Assembly (NCBI RefSeq): GCF_003325355.1
Contig: NZ_CP030850.1
Span: 3,658,001-3,722,000, forward strand
Length of the DNA stretch: 64,000 nucleotides
Direction of reading: 5' to 3'
Origin: Runella rosea
Lineage (GTDB): Bacteria; Bacteroidota; Bacteroidia; Cytophagales; Spirosomataceae
Shown: positions 70 to 8,160 of the stretch, one piece after another
How the letters are laid out: each line of letters begins with the position of its first letter
How positions within the stretch are numbered: the stretch's first letter is position 1
The notes under the pieces: model-generated
The model's input: only the letters and a program-made list of their open reading frames with translations
Database searches by the model: none
Told to the model about the DNA's origin: nothing
Position numbers and translations under genes: made by a program

Positions 70-1440
70 TTATTCTACTACCAACGCGCCCCAATACATC
101 AATTCTTTGATGCGGTCTGATACCAATTGCCGAAATTTCTCTTTTTCGGCACTTACTTCTTCGACCTTAAAATAGGGTGCAACCCTTTCAATCGCTTCTT
201 GAATAGAAATAGGTTCTTCTAAAAACGCATCTAACAGTACCATATTGAGGGGGTCTAATCCAATACTCTTTTCCGCGAGGGTATAAATATCAGGCACGAT
301 AAGCGTCTGCTCCAACGTGCCTTCTTGGGTAGTATTTTCTACCAATTGCACCTGTTCCGAAAACTGTAGTTTTTGTGTAAGAAACGGCAGTAAAGGCAAG
401 CTAAACAATTCTTGTACCTTACGATATTGACGTACATCTTGCTCATAATATACACGATACGCCTCTTTGGGGCTGTTGACACCTGAGCCGTTTAATCCGT
501 CAGTCGGTTTTGAACCGACCGACGGATGGGAGACTTGCCCATAATAACGACAATCCAATGCTACACCTGCGGCTTTACACTCCTCAATAATTCTGTAATA
601 ATACTCTGGATAGTCTTGCCGCAGCCGACGTGCCAAGTGCCGGCAGGTTTCGGGCTGACGCTTGAAATCTCCTAAGGCATGGATAAATTTGGTTTGATAA
701 GGCACGCTCTCAAAACGGGCAAAGCCTCGGTATGTGGGGTCAAAATCTTCTTCCCGCTCAATAAGGTACGTTACTGGCACCCCATGCTCTTTGGCCAGGC
801 AATAATACAGGAACTGCTCAAAGCCAATATTAAATGTACGACGGTTTATTTTGGACAGAGCCTCCTGGTTTTTATGAATAAGTTCAAACGACAATTCGGC
901 ATATTTTTTGAAAATATCCATCCGCGTTCCGCCTATTAGTCCAGTATTGCAGGAGCGTACGGGTATTTCGTTCATTTGCCGACGCATACAGTCAGGGATA
1001 TAAGCAAAATGCTGTTGCATCTCGCTTAGTGTTTGGTAATAATACTGAAAATCCACTTCGGGATTTTGGGCAATTAGGGCAGCCTGCTCCAAACGAGCCC
1101 CCAACGCCTCCCATAAATAAATATCCCCATCTACGTGCATAAATGGTTCATTTTGGAGACTATACGTGAAGATTTTCCCCAACGCCCACATATCTTCTGG
1201 ATACCCCTGAAGCCTATCCAAAGCGATACTGCAATGCGAATATGGCAATGCCAGTGTATCTATCAATATTTCTTTGCCCCTGCTGTCTGTAAAAATTTCG
1301 ACCTGTCCGTAGTGCTCACGCAGCGTAAGCACACTTAATGCCCACGACATCCAATGATATTCGGCGGATAACCAGCCCGAAGCGTTGTGAATTTGACGCT
1401 CATATGCTATATTAGACCAGAATGATTGTATAATTTTCAT
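70..1440 (-). CDS. DUF6734-like putative glycosyltransferase with C-terminal winged-helix/RRE-like region
   Basis: 456 residues. The N-terminal ~290 residues look like a GT-A type glycosyltransferase: a DGD (DxD) motif at 104-106 in the context PFMHVDGDIYLW, an NTGLIGG loop at 165-171, and a HALGDFKR segment near 254-261. I recognise it as resembling the DUF6734 family, whose function is not established to my knowledge. The last ~80 residues (about 380-456) have a strand followed by helices and end in IKELMYWGALVV, which resembles a PqqD-like RiPP recognition element or a winged helix; this is inference. Residues 305-316 are encoded by a palindromic repeat, so this stretch is probably a recent insertion. 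The gene is transcribed divergently from the double-glycine precursor at 1664. I infer a role in modifying that peptide, possibly glycosylation. It could instead act on cell-surface glycans. Confidence 0.7.
   Translation of the reverse strand: MKIIQSFWSNIAYERQIHNASGWLSAEYHWMSWALSVLTLREHYGQVEIFTDSRGKEILIDTLALPYSHCSIALDRLQGYPEDMWALGKIFTYSLQNEPFMHVDGDIYLWEALGARLEQAALIAQNPEVDFQYYYQTLSEMQQHFAYIPDCMRRQMNEIPVRSCNTGLIGGTRMDIFKKYAELSFELIHKNQEALSKINRRTFNIGFEQFLYYCLAKEHGVPVTYLIEREEDFDPTYRGFARFESVPYQTKFIHALGDFKRQPETCRHLARRLRQDYPEYYYRIIEECKAAGVALDCRYYGQVSHPSVGSKPTDGLNGSGVNSPKEAYRVYYEQDVRQYRKVQELFSLPLLPFLTQKLQFSEQVQLVENTTQEGTLEQTLIVPDIYTLAEKSIGLDPLNMVLLDAFLEEPISIQEAIERVAPYFKVEEVSAEKEKFRQLVSDRIKELMYWGALVVE
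495..527. repeat. Palindromic element, copy 1, inside a coding gene
   Basis: Near-perfect hairpin: ATCCGTC, then A, then GTCGGTT, a three-base loop, AACCGAC, then C, then GACGGAT. The single mismatch is an A opposite C on the plus strand. In RNA made from the minus strand, the direction of the host gene, this becomes a G-U wobble. The 33 bases are a multiple of three and keep the reading frame of the glycosyltransferase-like gene, adding about 11-12 residues (around HPSVGSKPTDG). Two related hairpins lie at 45335-45365 and 53544-53582. Confidence 0.8.
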
Positions 1441-1663
1441 TTGAACATTTTTTATGTTTTTTTTCTAAAAATCAACAGGTATATATTTGTAAAAATCAGG
1501 TATATATAAAAAATAACCCTTTAAGGATAAAAAATTTTTATGATAAACTATTTTCAACAAAACAGCATAAAAAATTTGATTTTTCGTTTTTTTTACGTGT
1601 TTTCCGAGGTCGAAACAAGCCGTTGCATGGTGCAGCAGCCCTAACCCTTCGACAACAATACGC

Positions 1664-1879
1664 ATGAAATCAAAATTTGCAGGTCTCAACTTCGACTCAG
1701 TAGAAGTACTAACGCAGGAAGAAAAAAAGAAAGTGAAAGGTGGGTATGGAGAAATTACCAAGCCCAAAGGTCGTTGGGCTTGTAACCACATTTCATTATC
1801 AAGCTTTGACTCGTATTCGAGTTGTGTAAGCGCTTGTGGCCCTCAAGTTTTCACTATCAACAACTGCTATTACGTTTAA
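1664..1879 (+). CDS. Double-glycine leader peptide precursor with four-cysteine core (putative RiPP/bacteriocin)
   Basis: 71 residues. The leader (1-27) ends in the typical pattern LTQEEKKKVKGG, with Gly-Gly at 26-27, the cleavage site of C39 peptidases. The predicted 44-residue core begins YGEITKPKG and has cysteines at 40, 54, 58 and 68 with a Ser-rich stretch (SLSSFDSYSSC) between the first two. Four cysteines suit two disulfides, matching the VKOR-thioredoxin protein encoded downstream. The genes for a C39 ABC exporter and an HlyD adaptor follow on the same strand. Ser-rich loop, paired cysteines and a neighbouring glycosyltransferase-like gene recall glycocins, but no sequence identity to a known one is claimed. 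The 223-base upstream gap (1441-1663) is AT-rich. A TATATTTG box at 1482-1489 lies rather far away to be a confident promoter. Confidence 0.85.
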   Translation: MKSKFAGLNFDSVEVLTQEEKKKVKGGYGEITKPKGRWACNHISLSSFDSYSSCVSACGPQVFTINNCYYV

Positions 1880-1937
1880 CTATTTTCGGGGTAATTTTTC
1901 AATTTACCCCATTCTTTATTTTTAGACCTTACCAATA

Positions 1938-2414
1938 ATGAAACAAATAATAAGCTTATTATTAATAAGTACATTAAATTCTTGCTATACGTCTCAAAAT
2001 ATTTCAAAGAAAAAGATACAATCTCAGCTTGTTGATTTTTTCAATAACGCCAACCATCTAAACATTGAGGCTTGCCAACCAATGCTTTATCTCCAATGTG
2101 CCACTGAAAAAGAAGCAAAAGACAACAATGTTTTTCGAGAAATTTTAAAAAGGTTAACTCAGGAAAGGAATTTTAAATCTTTAAAAATAACAGCAATAGA
2201 ATGGAAGTCTGACACTGCTTTTCTAACTACAAAAGTTTATTTTAACAATAACAAACCAATTGTAATTTATAAAGCAGATGAAAGAACTGAAGTTGATGAT
2301 AATCAAATACTTATTATGGACAAAAGGATTCTTTGTGGGAAAAATTCTCAAACACATTTTTTTATATTTCCCGAATGTAGCCTGAGTCAAAAAATGAGAA
2401 TAATAAAAAAGTAA
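1938..2414 (+). CDS. Small putative lipoprotein of unknown function
   Basis: 158 residues with a short hydrophobic N-terminus (IISLLLISTLNSC) whose Cys16 could be the lipidated residue after signal peptidase II cleavage; the lipobox LNSC is acceptable but not ideal. The remainder is a small mixed alpha/beta domain of NTF2-like length that I do not recognise. The gene is distinctly AT-rich compared with the genes after 8 kb, suggesting recent acquisition. It sits 58 bases after the precursor gene and points the same way, so it may be an immunity or accessory protein of the peptide locus. That role is only inferred from position; the sequence itself shows no functional motif. Confidence 0.65.
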   Translation: MKQIISLLLISTLNSCYTSQNISKKKIQSQLVDFFNNANHLNIEACQPMLYLQCATEKEAKDNNVFREILKRLTQERNFKSLKITAIEWKSDTAFLTTKVYFNNNKPIVIYKADERTEVDDNQILIMDKRILCGKNSQTHFFIFPECSLSQKMRIIKK

Positions 2415-2445
2415 GAATAAAGTTTATTTTTATATAAATCTATTT

Positions 2446-2943
2446 TTGACACAAGGAAATCAATGGACAGTTGCCGATGCGAAGGATACTACAATTAAAA
2501 TTGAAAACGGAAGCTATTCTGTCTTGACACGAGTACCTGTAAAATGTCCTTTCAAAGTCAACCTACAAGAAAATTTTGAAATTGAGTTTGATTTCAAAAT
2601 TGTTCCCAGTCCTGAAAACAGGGGACTTTCTTTTTTCTATTGGGGCAACTTTCTTACCAATAAAGGAGTCAATGCTATAATCTATTTTGATAACAAGGGT
2701 AATAGCCTCCGTTTTCCACAGTTTAATGTTATTCCAATAAACATCTATACCGCCAACATCAGTAGTGTAGAATATAATAAATTCACTATCAGGAAGATAG
2801 AAAATAGATATTATTACTACCTCAACGAACGACCTTTTTACTACTTTGATGAAGTCAATATAGATACAGATACCCCTCTTTGGTTTGGATGTTTGGCTTC
2901 CATGCAATTTGATAATGTGACTTATTCGTCAATCTTAAAATAA
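2446..2943 (+). CDS. Jelly-roll (LamG/DUF1080-like) domain protein, possibly 5'-truncated
   Basis: 165 residues beginning at a TTG codon; no ATG lies at the expected N-terminus. The pattern (NQWTVADAKDTTIKIENGSY, then FEIEFDFKIVP, then LSFFYWGNF, then FTIRKIENRYYYYLNERPF) is that of a concanavalin-like beta-sandwich as found in LamG or 3-keto-disaccharide hydrolase type domains. In such proteins the domain usually begins a few residues earlier with a DDFS-like segment, missing here. The open frame continues upstream into the preceding gene without a start. It is therefore either TTG-initiated or the remnant of a longer, fused gene. There is no signal peptide. Base composition is AT-rich like the gene before it. 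No catalytic residues can be assigned. Confidence 0.5.
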   Translation: MTQGNQWTVADAKDTTIKIENGSYSVLTRVPVKCPFKVNLQENFEIEFDFKIVPSPENRGLSFFYWGNFLTNKGVNAIIYFDNKGNSLRFPQFNVIPINIYTANISSVEYNKFTIRKIENRYYYYLNERPFYYFDEVNIDTDTPLWFGCLASMQFDNVTYSSILK

Positions 2944-2979
2944 AAAAATTAAAAGTTGAAAATCATAATTTAGTATCCA

Positions 2980-4413
2980 ATGGAAAAATGGTTAGATCAA
3001 GTACTAAGGGAATTAAAAATAAATTATACATCTTCAACTATAAAAAATGCTATAAATAGATGGTCACTTTTAAATATTAGGGATTTAACTCATTTTTTTG
3101 ATTTTTTTAAAATCCCCAATCTAACCATTCGCCTAAAACCAGACCAACTCTCCGAGATCTCCCTCCCCGCAATAGCCCATTGTCAAACAAATGATAATTC
3201 CTTTTTTGTATTGCTCCAACGCTTGCAAAACAATCAAATCAGCTACTATCGTGAAAGTAAGGGAGAAATAACTGAAACCATAGAAGCCTTTTCGGAGAAA
3301 TGGAGCGGTACGGTGATGCTGCTCGCTCCGGATGAACACTCCGGAGAGCCCAACTACGAGGGAAACAGACAAAAAGAACAAAGAACAAAACTCGAAAAAG
3401 GGTTGATGTGGGGGGCACTTAGAGTTGTTGTTTTGGTCGGCATCTTCCTTCAAACCCACCTCTATTTGTCGGGCATTTTTTTGCTTTACGGTATCGGAAC
3501 TGTAGTCTCCGTTTTACTACTACAAAGCGAGTATGGCAAACGGATAGAATGGGTAGAAAAATTATGTCATTTGGGAACCCCTCCCTCAGAGGGACAGGGG
3601 TGCAATGCAGTCACACAATCTTCGAGCAGTAAGATTTTTGGATTTAGTTGGGCAGAAATTGGGTTAGTGTATTTTGGAGGTAGTGCAATTTCATTCATCA
3701 TTGAACAATTAACATTGAAACAGGTTTCACCACTTTCTCTGTTACATATGTTTACACTTCCCTATGTCATCTATTCGCTTTATTATCAAGCATTTGTAGT
3801 ACGGGCATGGTGTATGTTGTGCCTGATAGTACAGGGCGTTTTGATAATGATTGCGGTAGCGTGGCTTGGACATTATGATTGGCACTTACGGGATGTCTCA
3901 GGAATGAACGTAGTAGCCTCTCTGCTAACAACAGCCAGTTTTGCACTTATGGTAGCTTTATGGCTTTTCTTTAAGCAGGTATGGCAACGAGAACGGCAGT
4001 TAGTACCTACCAAACGTGCGTTGAATCAGTGGCAAAACGACAGTGATTTGTTTTTATCGCATTTATATGCTCAACCTATCACCGAAATAGGGGTACTTCC
4101 CAATGAAACCCAAATAGGAAATATTGATGCTCCCATTGTTGTGACAATGGTAAGCAATCCGCATTGCAATCCGTGTAAAGAAGCCTTCAAGGAGCTAACA
4201 GGCTGGGTGAAGTATTTTGAGGACGAAATGCAATTGAGAATCAGGCATATCAATAGCAGTGAAGTACACTATCAGGAGCATGAAAAATGGGCAAAAGAAA
4301 TTGGGATAGAATTTACACCTACCTTGTTTATCAACGGGTATCAACTTCGTTCGCCTTACTCCTATAAAGATATATGGAAGCATGTACGGATACTGGCAGA
4401 AAAAGTTTCTTAG
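2980..4413 (+). CDS. VKOR-thioredoxin fusion with degenerate C39-like N-terminal domain
   Basis: 477 residues. Residues ~1-115 resemble a C39 peptidase fold (SLPAIAHCQTNDNSFFVLL) but lack an N-terminal catalytic Cys, and Ser74 sits where the active His would be, so this is probably a C39-like substrate-binding domain. Residues ~143-335 form a VKOR membrane domain: loop cysteines C196 and C208, the FGFSWAEIG segment, and the active WCMLC motif (C278, C281) in a membrane helix. Residues ~380-477 are a thioredoxin domain with C396-N-P-C399 and cis-proline P447. Together these would oxidise cysteines and pass disulfides to the exported peptide. A hairpin at 3577-3601 is inserted in-frame between the two VKOR loop cysteines. 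Another, weaker one (3326-3346, CTCCGG/CCGGAG) lies in the linker before the membrane domain. Confidence 0.88.
   Translation: MEKWLDQVLRELKINYTSSTIKNAINRWSLLNIRDLTHFFDFFKIPNLTIRLKPDQLSEISLPAIAHCQTNDNSFFVLLQRLQNNQISYYRESKGEITETIEAFSEKWSGTVMLLAPDEHSGEPNYEGNRQKEQRTKLEKGLMWGALRVVVLVGIFLQTHLYLSGIFLLYGIGTVVSVLLLQSEYGKRIEWVEKLCHLGTPPSEGQGCNAVTQSSSSKIFGFSWAEIGLVYFGGSAISFIIEQLTLKQVSPLSLLHMFTLPYVIYSLYYQAFVVRAWCMLCLIVQGVLIMIAVAWLGHYDWHLRDVSGMNVVASLLTTASFALMVALWLFFKQVWQRERQLVPTKRALNQWQNDSDLFLSHLYAQPITEIGVLPNETQIGNIDAPIVVTMVSNPHCNPCKEAFKELTGWVKYFEDEMQLRIRHINSSEVHYQEHEKWAKEIGIEFTPTLFINGYQLRSPYSYKDIWKHVRILAEKVS
3577..3601. repeat. In-frame hairpin within the VKOR cysteine loop
   Basis: Inverted repeat with arms ACCCC-TCCCTC and GAGGGA-(CA)-GGGGT around a single A. 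It gives 11 base pairs with a two-base bulge. It encodes residues ~200-208 (TPPSEGQGC), widening the spacing between the loop cysteines C196 and C208. VKOR homologues as I know them have a shorter spacing here. The sequence looks like a mobile palindrome that happened to keep the frame. Confidence 0.65.
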
Positions 4414-4462
4414 GCCATCTCAAACAGTTTCGCCATCTTATAATTAGGGTTTTGTATAAGTG

Positions 4463-4525
4463 ATGGCAAAATTCCCTTTTTATAAACAACTCGACGCGAT
4501 GGCCCGAAGCGTCGGCCCGGTGTGA
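4463..4525 (+). pseudogene. Duplicated, truncated 5' end of the C39 exporter gene
   Basis: The frame ATG GCA AAA TTC CCT TTT TAT... encodes MAKFPFYKQLDAM and then diverges, ending at TGA after 20 residues. It closely copies the start of the exporter gene 95 bases downstream (MRQFPFYRQLDVMDCGPT). The match stops just before the catalytic Cys codon, where a GC-rich stretch containing GTCGG/CCGAC arms begins (4511-4531). It looks like the relic of a duplicated or replaced exporter gene disrupted by a small repeat. A regulatory leader peptide is a less likely alternative. Confidence 0.6.
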
Positions 4526-4557
4526 CCCGACTTGCCTCCGGATGAAAACTAACAACC

Positions 4558-6837
4558 ATGAGACAATTCCCTTTTTATAGGCAACTCGACGTGATGGATT
4601 GCGGGCCTACCTGCTTGCGTATGGTGGCAAAGTATTACGGTCGGAACTATTCAGCGCAAGAATTACGAGAATTGACACAAATAGGAAAAGACGGAGTGAA
4701 TTTGTTGGGGATTTCGGAAGCGGCTGAGGCAATCGGATTTCGAACGTTGGCTATCAAACTACCTTTACATAAACTTCTTTCTGATGCTCCTTTTCCCTGT
4801 ATTGTTCACTGGGGACATAATCATTTTGTGGTAGTACAGCCCGCGCGGCGTACCGTCCCAAACCCCCAATGGGGGCTTTTTAATTCCCTTTCTCTTACAA
4901 GGACAAAGGGTCGAAACGGGACGTCTCGTGGAATAGAGGTAGCTGACCCAGCACAAGGGCTTATTACTTACACCCGTGAAGAATTTGAAAAGCAATGGGC
5001 AACAACAACATCTGGCAATGAGAAAGTAGGAATCGTGTTGCTGCTTGAGCCTACACCTGCGTTTTATGAAGAAAACGTTTTAACAAATCTTAAAGAAGGG
5101 AAAGAGCAGAATCATATTTGGTCTGCCCGAATCGGGGGGTATCTCTGGCAACATCGTCGTTTGGTAGGTCAATTGGCTGTTGGTTTAGTGGTAGCAAGCT
5201 TATTACAGCTAATTTTTCCATTTCTTACCCAATCGGTGGTGGATGTAGGCGTACAAACGCGCAACCCCTCTTTTATTTTGTTGGTATTGTTGGCACAGTT
5301 GGCACTTACAGTAGGCCGTACCTCTGTCGAGTTTATTCGGTCGTGGTTATTGATGCACTTGAGTACCCGGCTTAATTTGTCCCTGCTTTCCGATTTCCTC
5401 ATCAAACTCACTCGTTTACCCTTGTCGTTTTTTGATTCTAAGCAGTTTGGCGACATCATGCAACGTATAGGTGACCACCATCGCATTGAGCAGTTTCTGA
5501 CGGGTCAAACGCTCAATACTCTATTTTCACTCTTCAATCTGGTCATATTTGGAGCAGTTTTAGCCTTTTATAATCTTACAATTTTTGGGGTTTTGATGAT
5601 AGCCGCTGTATTATATGCAAGTTGGGTTATGCTCTTTCTGAAATTTAGGCGTAAGTTAGATTACCAACGGTTTGGTATTGCAGCCAAAAGCAATGGTTCG
5701 TTGGTTCAACTTATTCAAGGAATGCACGATATTCGACTGGCGGGTGCCGAAACGCCCATGCGTTGGGAGTGGGAACAATTGCAAACTCAGTCGTTTAAAT
5801 TGGGAATGAAAGGGCTGTCGGTGTCTCAATGGCAACAGGCAGGGGCATTATTGATTAATGAAAGCAAAAGTATTTTTATTACTTTCTTATCGGCACAAGC
5901 TGTAATGAATGGCCAACTTACTTTAGGCGGTATGTTAGCAGTTCAGTATATCATCGGGCAAGTGAACGGTCCTATTGAACACTTGATCGGGTTACTACAA
6001 TCAGGGCAGGATGCCAAAATTAGCTTGGAACGCCTGAATGAAATCTATGAATTGGAAGATGAAGAGAACAACGATTTGTTGCGCGGACTTTCAAAGGACA
6101 AGTATCTCTATTTGAAAGACATTACTTTTACCTACACGGGCGCAGGCAATTTACCTGTCTTTAAAAACCTCAGTTTATTTATTCCTCAAGGCAAAACTAC
6201 CGCCATTGTTGGTACAAGCGGTAGTGGTAAGACGACGCTACTTAAACTACTATTGCGATTTTATGAGCCTACACAAGGACAGATTCGGGTAGGAGATACC
6301 GCCCTTACACAGCTATCCCACAAATATTGGCGCAGTCAATGCGGTGTAGTGATGCAGGAAGGGTTTATCTTCTCCGATACCATCGCCCGTAACATTGCCA
6401 TAGGCGTAGAAGGTATAGACCGTGCCAAACTCTATCATGCGGCCAAAACAGCCAATATTCTGGAGTTTGTCGAATCTCTGCCAATGGGTTTCCATACCAA
6501 AATCGGGGCAGAGGGAAATGGCATCAGCCAAGGGCAAAAACAACGAATTTTGATTGCCAGAGCCGTTTATAAAGACCCTCAGTACATTTTTTTCGACGAA
6601 GCTACGAATGCTTTAGATGCTCATAATGAATCTATCATCATTGATAACCTTAACGCTTTTTTCAAAAACCGTACCGTAGTGGTAGTTGCTCACCGATTAA
6701 GTACAGTCAAAAATGCGGATCAAATTGTAGTCATGGACAAAGGCGTAATTACAGAAATTGGAACACACAACGAATTGGCCTTGCAACGAGGAGCTTATTA
6801 TGAACTGGTGAAAAATCAACTGGAACTGGATAATTAA
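4558..6837 (+). CDS. C39 peptidase-containing ABC exporter (PCAT/SunT/LagD type)
   Basis: 759 residues. The N-terminal C39 peptidase has Cys15 (MDCGPTC), His89 (HNHFVVV) and Asp130 (ADPAQG), and would cleave the double-glycine leader of the neighbouring precursor during export. A six-helix ABC membrane domain spans ~200-480, followed by the nucleotide-binding domain: Walker A GTSGSGKT near 552, signature ISQGQKQR near 656, Walker B IFFDEAT near 677 and the switch His in VVAHRLS near 710. The domain order and length fit peptidase-containing transporters. About 32 residues (96-127) between the catalytic His and Asp are extra compared with the usual short loop; they are encoded by a repeat-like insertion. 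The HlyD adaptor gene starts six bases after the stop. Confidence 0.93.
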   Translation: MRQFPFYRQLDVMDCGPTCLRMVAKYYGRNYSAQELRELTQIGKDGVNLLGISEAAEAIGFRTLAIKLPLHKLLSDAPFPCIVHWGHNHFVVVQPARRTVPNPQWGLFNSLSLTRTKGRNGTSRGIEVADPAQGLITYTREEFEKQWATTTSGNEKVGIVLLLEPTPAFYEENVLTNLKEGKEQNHIWSARIGGYLWQHRRLVGQLAVGLVVASLLQLIFPFLTQSVVDVGVQTRNPSFILLVLLAQLALTVGRTSVEFIRSWLLMHLSTRLNLSLLSDFLIKLTRLPLSFFDSKQFGDIMQRIGDHHRIEQFLTGQTLNTLFSLFNLVIFGAVLAFYNLTIFGVLMIAAVLYASWVMLFLKFRRKLDYQRFGIAAKSNGSLVQLIQGMHDIRLAGAETPMRWEWEQLQTQSFKLGMKGLSVSQWQQAGALLINESKSIFITFLSAQAVMNGQLTLGGMLAVQYIIGQVNGPIEHLIGLLQSGQDAKISLERLNEIYELEDEENNDLLRGLSKDKYLYLKDITFTYTGAGNLPVFKNLSLFIPQGKTTAIVGTSGSGKTTLLKLLLRFYEPTQGQIRVGDTALTQLSHKYWRSQCGVVMQEGFIFSDTIARNIAIGVEGIDRAKLYHAAKTANILEFVESLPMGFHTKIGAEGNGISQGQKQRILIARAVYKDPQYIFFDEATNALDAHNESIIIDNLNAFFKNRTVVVVAHRLSTVKNADQIVVMDKGVITEIGTHNELALQRGAYYELVKNQLELDN
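4843..4938. repeat. In-frame 96-base repeat-like insertion in the C39 peptidase domain
   Basis: Encodes roughly residues 96-127 (starting ARRTVPNPQWGLFNS), which interrupts what is normally a short His-to-Asp loop in C39 peptidases. The DNA contains a CCCCC-AAT-GGGGG palindrome flanked by related ends (CGTACCGTCCC and GGGACGTCTCG), a structure typical of an intergenic repeat. The boundaries are approximate, judged from the protein family pattern rather than an alignment. Confidence 0.6.
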
Positions 6838-6843
6838 ATTAAA

Positions 6844-8160
6844 ATGGAAGAGGCTTATTTGACAGATAGACCAGAAGGGGCAGCTTTCTTTGAAGAACTA
6901 CGGAGTGAGGAGATTCAAGAAGTATTGAGTAATAAACCACCCTGGGCTGTTCGTTGGGGGAATACGGTGTTTTTAGTGATTTTATTGTCGATTTTAGGGC
7001 TTAGTTGGCTGATTAAATATCCCGAAATCATTGTTGTACCTTTCCGTCTTACTTCAGATGATGTTCCCAAACCTGTTGTTGCTAAGGCAAACGGGCGGCT
7101 TGTAAAACTATGGGTCAAAGAAAATCAGTATGTTGAAAAAGGAAAAGTATTGGCTTATATTGAGAGTACAGCATCACATTCAGAAGTTTTAGCACTTCAA
7201 AATTCTTTAGATAGTTTGGCTGTACTTATTGAGACAGGTCATTTTGAAGATATTTCGTCTTTTCGGGCAGGAAGTTTTCAACATTTGGGCGAGTTGCAAA
7301 GCGATTACCAGACATTTATGCAGCAATTTTCTGAAACGGCTGCGCTTTTCACTCAAGGTTATTTAGCAAAGAAGAAAGATTTTCTACGCTATGAAATTTC
7401 AGATTTAGAACAAAATCATGAACAGCTTTTAGAACAGTATGACATTCAAAATCAAGATTTTAGATTGGCCGAGAAAGAATTTGGAATGCACAAAAAATTG
7501 TATGAACAAAAAGTAATTGCTTGGGTAGAGTACAATAGGGAAGAGCGCAATTTTTTGGCAAAAAAAATGCCATTGAAGCAATTGGAGATGAGTATTACTA
7601 ACAATCAGACCGCTCAAACTCAAAAACAACGGGAATTGGCAGAATTAGAAAAACAGGCCAATGCTCAAAAAATACAATTTAGTCAATCTATTAATTCATT
7701 GCGGGCTAATGTAGCTTCATGGAAAGCTCGCTATATTCCTACCGCTCCTCGGTCGGGTCAAGTATATTTTACAGCACTTTGGCAGGAAGAACAAAATGTT
7801 AAAAATGAAGAAGTTTTGTTTTATGTGGGTACTTCACAAAAGGGATATTTTGGCGAACTTAACATCCCGCAAGCCAATGCAGGAAAAATTCAGGTCGGAC
7901 AATGGGTCTTAATAAAGTTTCAAAGCTTCCCATTTGAACAGTTTGGAATGGTAAAGGGACAAATAAAAAGTGTAGCATCTATTCTCTCTACCGATACTAC
8001 ATTTAGGGCAATTGTGACACTTCCAAAAGGTCTTACGACTACTTCACATAAAACGCTTCCTTTCAAAAATAACCTTAACGCTTCTGCCGAAATCATAACG
8101 CAGGATGTGAGCGTCGCTGAACGTATGTTTTATCAACTCAAAAAGTTAATAAACCAATAA
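6844..8160 (+). CDS. HlyD-family membrane fusion protein (export adaptor)
   Basis: 438 residues. One transmembrane helix lies at about 39-57 after a cytoplasmic N-terminus, then a biotinyl-lipoyl-like half domain (PVVAKANGRLVKLWVKENQYVEKG, 77-100), a long charged coiled-coil hairpin (~150-280), the second half of the lipoyl domain (APRSGQVYF) and a beta-barrel region. This is the standard adaptor that joins an inner-membrane ABC exporter to an outer-membrane channel. It lies six bases after the C39 exporter and surely works with it. No TolC-like outer-membrane gene is adjacent, so a channel encoded elsewhere would be used. A terminator-like hairpin follows at 8181, marking the end of the transcription unit. 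Confidence 0.9.
   Translation: MEEAYLTDRPEGAAFFEELRSEEIQEVLSNKPPWAVRWGNTVFLVILLSILGLSWLIKYPEIIVVPFRLTSDDVPKPVVAKANGRLVKLWVKENQYVEKGKVLAYIESTASHSEVLALQNSLDSLAVLIETGHFEDISSFRAGSFQHLGELQSDYQTFMQQFSETAALFTQGYLAKKKDFLRYEISDLEQNHEQLLEQYDIQNQDFRLAEKEFGMHKKLYEQKVIAWVEYNREERNFLAKKMPLKQLEMSITNNQTAQTQKQRELAELEKQANAQKIQFSQSINSLRANVASWKARYIPTAPRSGQVYFTALWQEEQNVKNEEVLFYVGTSQKGYFGELNIPQANAGKIQVGQWVLIKFQSFPFEQFGMVKGQIKSVASILSTDTTFRAIVTLPKGLTTTSHKTLPFKNNLNASAEIITQDVSVAERMFYQLKKLINQ

Follow-up and report, generated by a model that had tools for sequence, protein, structure and literature searches.

Glycocins, such as sublancin and glycocin F, carry two disulfides formed by paired cysteines (CX6C ... CX6C); their clusters combine a double-glycine leader, a C39 exporter, a thiol oxidoreductase and a glycosyltransferase, and those in Bacillota use soluble thioredoxin-like proteins. 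According to the accessible part of PMC9576775, ten glycocins have been identified experimentally, from Bacillota. Bacteroidetocins, which come from Bacteroidota, are likewise described with a double-glycine precursor, a dedicated thiol oxidoreductase and a C39 ABC exporter (PMC6671954, accessible part). Here we describe a locus that shares these elements and lies at positions 70-8160 of a 64,000-nucleotide stretch, the window, taken from the 7.16 Mb genome of Runella rosea (main contig NZ_CP030850.1, positions 3,658,001-3,722,000). It additionally encodes a protein of the family DUF6734, a predicted glycosyltransferase with a domain resembling the recognition element (RRE) of ribosomally synthesized and post-translationally modified peptides (RiPPs). 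We consider it likely, with a probability of roughly 0.7, that the locus makes a secreted peptide, the core of which receives a sugar from leader-guided DUF6734 while still in the cytosol, ahead of export. This reading draws on the gene set, the GT-A-like and RRE-like models, the conserved metal and sugar motifs, and the co-occurrence and co-phylogeny of leader and DUF6734, all shown by computation.

The locus differs from glycocin clusters in several respects. Its enzyme is not a GT2 protein by Pfam (PF00535, the SunS-type family) and carries the RRE-like domain, its core cysteines are spaced C-X13-C-X3-C-X9-C instead of in CX6C pairs, and its oxidase is a VKOR-thioredoxin fusion in a host belonging to Bacteroidota. 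The label "glycocin-like", given to the locus by an earlier sequence-only reading, therefore does not hold in the strict sense, for want of a GT2 match and of the CX6C pairs; this lowers the case for a glycocin, not that for a glycosylated, disulfide-bonded peptide. The latter proposal of the same reading, a disulfide-bonded and possibly glycosylated secreted peptide, gains support from the gene set, the putative glycosyltransferase and the RRE-like domain that would tie the enzyme to the leader.

Mature bacteroidetocins have 42-48 aa and four cysteines, which the window core (44 aa, four cysteines) fits, but their leaders of 15-16 aa ending in GG are shorter than the 27 aa found here. The four-gene bacteroidetocin region encodes a five-transmembrane protein, and no glycosyltransferase is named in the accessible part of the source (PMC6671954), whereas the window has DUF6734 with its RRE-like domain. 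No separate gene for a five-transmembrane protein is apparent in the open reading frame list of the locus, viewed without transmembrane prediction.

Fusions of an RRE to a putative glycosyltransferase, with function predicted only, have been reported from RRE-Finder analyses (PMC7470986, PMC12710340). The accessible text of PMC12710340 assigns them to PF00535 (GT2), that of PMC7470986 gives no Pfam family, and DUF6734 is named in neither. Bacteroidales RiPP clusters also share double-glycine precursors, peptidase-containing exporters and putative glycosyltransferases, including a predicted peptide S-glycosyltransferase, with a Bacteroidota host; they combine radical SAM and LanC proteins, and the accessible part of the source names neither DUF6734 nor an RRE-fused glycosyltransferase (PMC10352776). 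RRE-glycosyltransferase fusions and predicted Bacteroidales peptide glycosyltransferases are thus already published, and the DUF6734 family is not among them, so the caution on novelty voiced in the sequence-only reading was apt. No mention of DUF6734 or PF20508 was found in the literature searched, which did not extend to subscription journals or supplements. What is new against this background is that a ribosomal peptide system includes a probable leader-guided glycosyltransferase from a so far unstudied family.

The enzyme and its putative substrate are encoded as follows:

70-1440, - strand: DUF6734 protein, 456 aa (Pfam E 6e-106; AlphaFold2 model, fold searches, motifs)
Residues 1 to ~290 of the DUF6734 protein: predicted GT-A glycosyltransferase domain (motifs D104xD106, N165TG, H254xxGxxK260)
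73-453, - strand (residues 330-456 of the DUF6734 protein): RRE-like winged-helix domain, putative leader-binding part (AlphaFold2 model, PDB matches, PqqD profile match)
1664-1879, + strand: precursor gene, 71 aa
1664-1744, + strand: precursor leader, type A, 27 aa with a GG end (alignment with six other leaders; genome survey)
1745-1876, + strand: precursor core, 44 aa, cysteines at core positions 13, 27, 31 and 41 (translation)

The five genes named in the sequence-only reading correspond to open reading frames carrying the named domains (open reading frame list, Pfam). Translation bore out the precursor with its double-glycine leader, four core cysteines and Ser-rich stretch: the leader terminates in KGG, and SLSSFDSYSS sits between the first and second core cysteines. 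The VKOR-thioredoxin fusion, the C39 ABC exporter and the HlyD adaptor were likewise recovered by Pfam. Absent from that reading were the C39-like N-terminus of the VKOR protein, the C-terminal domain of the 70-1440 protein and two small open reading frames.

The N-terminal part of DUF6734 models as a GT-A fold

The family DUF6734 covers residues 1-286 of the 70-1440 protein, which is the only DUF6734 copy in the Runella rosea genome, and is its sole Pfam family up to E 0.1; there is no match to PF01501 (GT8). The full-length structure was predicted with AlphaFold2 from ten sequences (predicted local distance difference test score, pLDDT, 83; predicted template modelling score, pTM, 0.80). When this model was compared with the PDB using VIA-align, glycogenin ranked first (Z 12.8, root-mean-square deviation (rmsd) 4.1, 215 residues), followed by LgtC (11.9), WbbM (11.6), alpha-1,3-galactosyltransferase (11.5) and UGGT (11.5). 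The Foldseek matches include LARGE1, UGGT and blood-group transferases, with E values from 4e-5 to 7e-5. The GT-A DxD motif that had been noticed in this divergent protein from the letters lies at residues 104-106, and the retrieval of glycogenin and LgtC agrees with it.

Residues D104, D106, H254, E208, G167, G170 and G171 are identical in 46/46 aligned homologues and K260 in 45 (homologues with E < 1e-30 and > 270 aa; broken genes and a distant branch, described below, were excluded). The patterns DxD, NxG and HxxGxxK, which we take to be hallmarks of GT8, are all present in 40 of these 46 proteins. Glycogenin and LgtC, both GT8, share the GT-A fold and have the three motifs in identical order, but differ in the lack of a detectable sequence relation and in the extra RRE-like domain of DUF6734. 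Among five local GT8 proteins, DxD was found in five, NxG in four and HxxGxxK in one, and the same motif order was seen in one (L115). As the fold matches without a sequence relation to GT8, what is claimed for the N-terminal part of DUF6734 is a GT-A fold, in which the metal site looks intact, and not GT8 membership.

The C-terminal part of DUF6734 resembles an RRE

Residues 330-456 (127 residues) were predicted separately with AlphaFold2 from nine sequences (pLDDT 93, pTM 0.85). The model contains two helices, a small beta sheet and further helices (strands 28-31, 36-41, 47-55 and 60-65; helices 68-77, 84-94, 97-102 and 104-120), and shows the predicted winged arrangement of three strands and three helices that characterizes the RRE fold (for the order of these elements see the accessible part of PMC12710340). 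Its best match in the PDB is the leader-bound structure of TbiB1 (Z 9.3, rmsd 2.1 A, 86/88 residues), and other matches include NisB (9.3), TigE (8.3), MibB (8.3), TbtB (8.2), ThcOx (8.0), MccB (7.8) and the PbtF RRE (7.1), with TruD and McbBCD in further rows. Additional structural rows contain the carbamoyltransferase GdmN, JmjC enzymes and 3DEE; these are consistent with an RRE, because carbamoyltransferases, JmjC proteins and 3DEE are all described as bearing RRE-like domains (PMC12710340, accessible part).

In hhalign comparisons the relation of the domain to the PqqD family scored 79.9% with a 27-row alignment (E 1.4e-5) and 32% with an 18-row alignment (E 4.8e-4), 19 control families giving at most 1.2%; with nine rows the score was 0.7%. 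An iterated hidden Markov model search found the domain in 26/32 long (at least 400 aa) DUF6734 homologues, the window protein being excluded and about 8 of the 26 being seeds. With a GT-A-like N-terminus and an RRE-like C-terminus, DUF6734 therefore appears to be a glycosyltransferase that holds its precursor by the leader, the binding being predicted.

Two proteins of 614-615 aa (L044:6112-7959 and L046:6697-8541) adjoin short DUF6734 and LanB/LanC genes, and their C-termini match the DUF6734 RRE profile (E 1.8e-7 and 1.1e-5). The L044 protein, which was the one scanned, has no Pfam match; by eye, the remainder of the two proteins looks LanC-like. A discrete RRE beside the short DUF6734 of L056 is possible and was not used as evidence; that locus may be decayed, because its precursor core has 13 residues and its genome contains no C39.

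Leader types pair with DUF6734

Precursors of the window type have a leader with the consensus MKSKFxxLxFxSVxxLSxxxQxKVxGG (type A), and precursors used as a control have the consensus MKKxLxxFxxxxLSRxQMKxVKGG (type B). The two types are alike in the C-terminal half near GG and different in the N-terminal half, and their clusters have homologous exporters. When 150 genomes from the window's family were searched with the type A leader, 10 places were recovered at E <= 0.01, spread over 9 genomes. Because the place in genome G049 is better matched by type B (8e-12 vs 0.005), type A was reduced to 9 places in 8 genomes. Judged by its leader, the window precursor is more than a chance open reading frame, since the leader type recurs at nine other places in eight other genomes, the better-matched-by-type-B place in G049 included.

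DUF6734 is present in 25/150 genomes of the window's family and 16/395 of the phylum; the 150 genomes of the DUF6734, type A and type B surveys were taken as one draw, having matching handles and totals. All eight type A genomes carry DUF6734, at a distance of 0.1 to 5.9 kb (Fisher p 2e-7), with six of the eight having contributed to the search profile; when seed genomes were removed, the association was 2/2 (p 0.017). The type B leader occurs in 38/150 genomes, 27 of which are without DUF6734. Within 1.5 kb, DUF6734 was found in 6/10 type A loci vs 0/30 fetched type B loci, UDPGT-type genes in 0/10 and 10/30, respectively, and neither of the two in 45 control loci (0/45 each).

Mapped onto a tree of the glycosyltransferase domain, the distribution of the four leader types is explained by 4 changes (minimum 3), compared with a mean of 11.3 after shuffling, and none of 200 shuffles was as low. 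Labels were assigned by eye ahead of tree building; L059 and L051 hold two leader types and were given one label, L048 was labelled from the 150-genome type A search, and L042, L060 and L098, which carry leaders of unclear type or of type B, were left off. Subtype C is found in Allomuricauda, in one genome of the window's family and in one from a different family of the class; the link between leader and DUF6734 thus does not simply follow the species tree. Leader type follows the DUF6734 tree, and the two both co-occur and share a phylogeny. In core composition tests, based on ten type A places including the doubtful G049 and omitting two very short cores, Pro was higher in type A cores (p 0.004; few sequences).

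Of the DUF6734 loci in which the gene is wholly or partly intact, 29/50 have at least one RiPP-type marker: a double-glycine precursor in 21, a C39 ABC exporter in 16, VKOR in 12, LanB in 6, LanC in 3 and radical SAM in 3. The leader profile was seeded with 13 leaders from surveyed loci and the precursor count of 21/50 is therefore not independent; two more loci with a precursor (L094, L048) stand outside it. A C39 domain lies no more than 12.5 kb from 13/26 DUF6734 places, where chance gives at most 1.4% per place (p 6e-18); the count includes the C39-like domain of VKOR fusions, and places near contig ends cannot reveal a distant C39. These 26 places derive from 32 DUF6734 rows, after four on contig ends or tiny contigs were dropped (G124, G128 and two of G086) and two tandem pairs were merged. 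The sequence-only reading had made its proposal dependent on the glycosyltransferase-like gene accompanying double-glycine precursors. For the window's subtype this holds, with a type A leader near DUF6734 in every genome that has one. It holds only in part for the family as a whole, which also occurs with LanB/LanC, radical SAM and other leader types, has 14/50 loci without any marker sought, and in 5/50 cases belongs to loci of extracellular contractile injection systems (eCIS).

Oxidase, exporter and sister systems

The remaining features of the locus are:

1441-1663, no strand: divergent intergenic region of 223 bp between the DUF6734 gene and the precursor gene (putative promoter region)
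2980-4413, + strand: fusion of a C39-like domain (no catalytic Cys/His), VKOR and thioredoxin; putative peptide disulfide-forming enzyme (Pfam VKOR 7e-14, Thioredoxin_4 9.5e-8; catalytic columns)
4558-6837, + strand: C39 peptidase-ABC exporter (Pfam ABC_tran 9.4e-31, Peptidase_C39 2.5e-30)
6844-8160, + strand: HlyD-type membrane fusion adaptor (Pfam HlyD_3 6.9e-10; TIGR01843 below cut-off)

The N-terminus of the VKOR protein is a C39-like domain (Pfam E 2e-11). None of 12 VKOR homologues, including that of the window, has Cys/His at the C39 catalytic columns, the alignment of the Cys column being loose for several rows. The window exporter retains the catalytic Cys15, His89 and Asp130, and Cys, His and Asp are present in 17/18 ABC exporters, the eighteenth being a misgrouped ABC protein. 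A C39-like domain unable to cut could hold the leader near the oxidase. General disulfide machinery is absent from Bacteroides, and a thiol oxidoreductase is required for full bacteroidetocin activity (PMC6671954, accessible part).

Two more VKOR-C39 systems are present in the Runella rosea genome, both with type B precursors (L108:4990-13912 and L109:6177-12203). In the place of DUF6734, L108 has a UDPGT-type glycosyltransferase, and L109 has a UDPGT and two GT2 genes; thus all three systems of this genome include a glycosyltransferase. The VKOR and exporter genes of L109 look broken, and the system appears decayed.

Proposed mechanism and alternative explanations

In the proposed pathway, the RRE-like domain would bind the N-terminal half of the type A leader (MKSKFxxLxFxS), and the GT-A domain would glycosylate a side chain of the core, with a nucleotide sugar as donor. 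The second half of the leader (LSxxxQxKVxGG), common to other precursors of the family, would be recognized by the C39 domain that the ABC exporter carries; this exporter would cleave after GG, and the core would leave with the help of the HlyD adaptor. At the membrane, the C39-like/VKOR/thioredoxin protein would form the disulfides; its C39-like domain may hold the leader and is predicted to be unable to cut. Sugar transfer, the acceptor residue, leader binding and the order of steps are what we infer. The shared C-terminal half, together with a type A N-terminal half that travels with RRE-fused DUF6734, suggests a two-part division of labour within the leader. As to its function, our guess is that the peptide most likely serves as a bacteriocin or as a signal.

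Several observations weigh against this proposal. Product, sugar and activity are all predicted from genes and models. A comparison of 46 DUF6734 domains with two local GT8-like sets detected no sequence relation (hhalign 0.1%), on which GT8 membership by sequence was rejected and kept as fold likeness only; a profile search of the PDB found no relative, its two matches (E 0.076 and 0.22) being unrelated. As to the C-terminal domain, Foldseek gave no RRE match at E <= 0.001 (best 0.003, TglHI), the hhalign comparison with PqqD fell to 0.7% with a 9-row alignment, the Pfam PqqD model matched one of nine members (E 0.06), and the short forms of DUF6734 (~280-320 aa) are without the domain. The type B leader is also mildly associated with DUF6734 (odds 2.9, p 0.025), and locus L042 has DUF6734 with type B leaders. 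The Ser+Thr content of type A cores is no different from that of type B cores (p 0.83), and Ser/Thr enrichment as a sign of O-glycosylation was rejected on this value. Around the other 13/26 DUF6734 places no C39 was found up to a distance of 12.5 kb, genomes G045, G085, G122, G124 and G135 have no C39 at all, and a distant DUF6734 branch is located in eCIS loci.

DUF6734 might instead be a leader-dependent enzyme of the GT-A fold that does not glycosylate the core, for example one that transfers another nucleotide-activated group, or a chaperone without catalytic activity that hands the precursor over to the oxidase and the exporter. Chemistry is not set by fold: a GlcNAc-1-phosphotransferase (7sj2, Z 11.0) is among the VIA-align rows and a phosphotransferase (8j2n) among the Foldseek rows, and there are known cases of RRE proteins whose catalytic-family name is misleading (PMC12710340, accessible part). 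Every aligned homologue nevertheless retains the His, the NxG motif and the metal-binding DxD, which argues against a dead enzyme, and the sister systems L108 and L109 have ordinary glycosyltransferases; we regard this explanation as unlikely. A shade less plausible is that the peptide, like the bacteroidetocins, is simply a class II-like bacteriocin with disulfide bonds, and that DUF6734 glycosylates another target, for instance a surface glycan that serves self-protection, or is a chance neighbour. The precursor, thiol oxidoreductase and C39 exporter do resemble bacteroidetocin regions (PMC6671954, accessible part), and DUF6734 is divergently transcribed and occurs also without C39 genes. 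However, an RRE-like domain has no obvious use in a surface-glycan enzyme, leader type and DUF6734 co-occur and co-diverge, and DUF6734 is found also with LanB, LanC and radical-SAM RiPP genes.

A true glycocin, with two nested disulfides and an S- or O-glycoside made on the loop by a GT2 enzyme as in sublancin, is very improbable. The double-glycine leader, C39 exporter, thiol oxidoreductase and putative glycosyltransferase are all present, but the enzyme falls outside the GT2 Pfam family, its best folds are of the glycogenin/LgtC type, it has an RRE-like domain and the cysteine spacing is different; two defining features of glycocins are already missing.

Beyond glycosylation of the window peptide by DUF6734, the family may found an undescribed group of ribosomal glycopeptides in Bacteroidota, with RRE-fused glycogenin-like GT-A enzymes, leader types matched to subfamilies, a common oxidase-exporter module and a bipartite leader. 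We advance this extension tentatively, at slightly less than even odds. In it, the bipartite leader would allow sugars to be written onto foreign cores by leader swap. If the main proposal is right, DUF6734 would gain a testable role, leader-controlled sugar transfer to ribosomal peptides; its fusion to an RRE would make the glycosyltransferase a tool for glycosylating peptides in an addressable way, and the pairing of leader type and glycosyltransferase would help to find more Bacteroidota glycopeptides.

Other DUF6734 loci and small open reading frames

In five loci from one genus (L103-L107; genomes G370, G174, G319, G323 and G393), distant DUF6734 genes (Pfam E ~1e-20 to 1e-24, e.g. L103:7820-9518), single or in tandem pairs, adjoin contractile-injection tape-measure and eCIS core genes. 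This branch is a putative glycosyltransferase of extracellular injection-system loci. Loci L061, L062 and L066 combine DUF6734 with radical SAM, a C39 exporter, DUF6625, a Core-2/Branch glycosyltransferase and an outer-membrane beta-barrel protein. They are possible multi-enzyme peptide glycosylation clusters, and no precursor was found in them. In L045, L050 and L058, where no precursor was found either, DUF6734 adjoins a resistance-nodulation-division (RND) pump, its HlyD-type adaptor and DUF4221.

Within the window locus, the DUF6734 gene is transcribed divergently from the precursor gene, and the intergenic region between them (1441-1663) contains one match to TAnnTTTG, at 1482 (+). A terminator-like hairpin lies at 1759-1782 (-), on the opposite strand within the coding region of the precursor core. 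Two small open reading frames, 1938-2414 and 2446-2943, are located between the precursor and VKOR genes, and neither had a match in Pfam and NCBIfam scans. The former has a lipoprotein-like start and the latter a TTG start, with no ATG start listed; both are candidates for immunity genes, or remnants.

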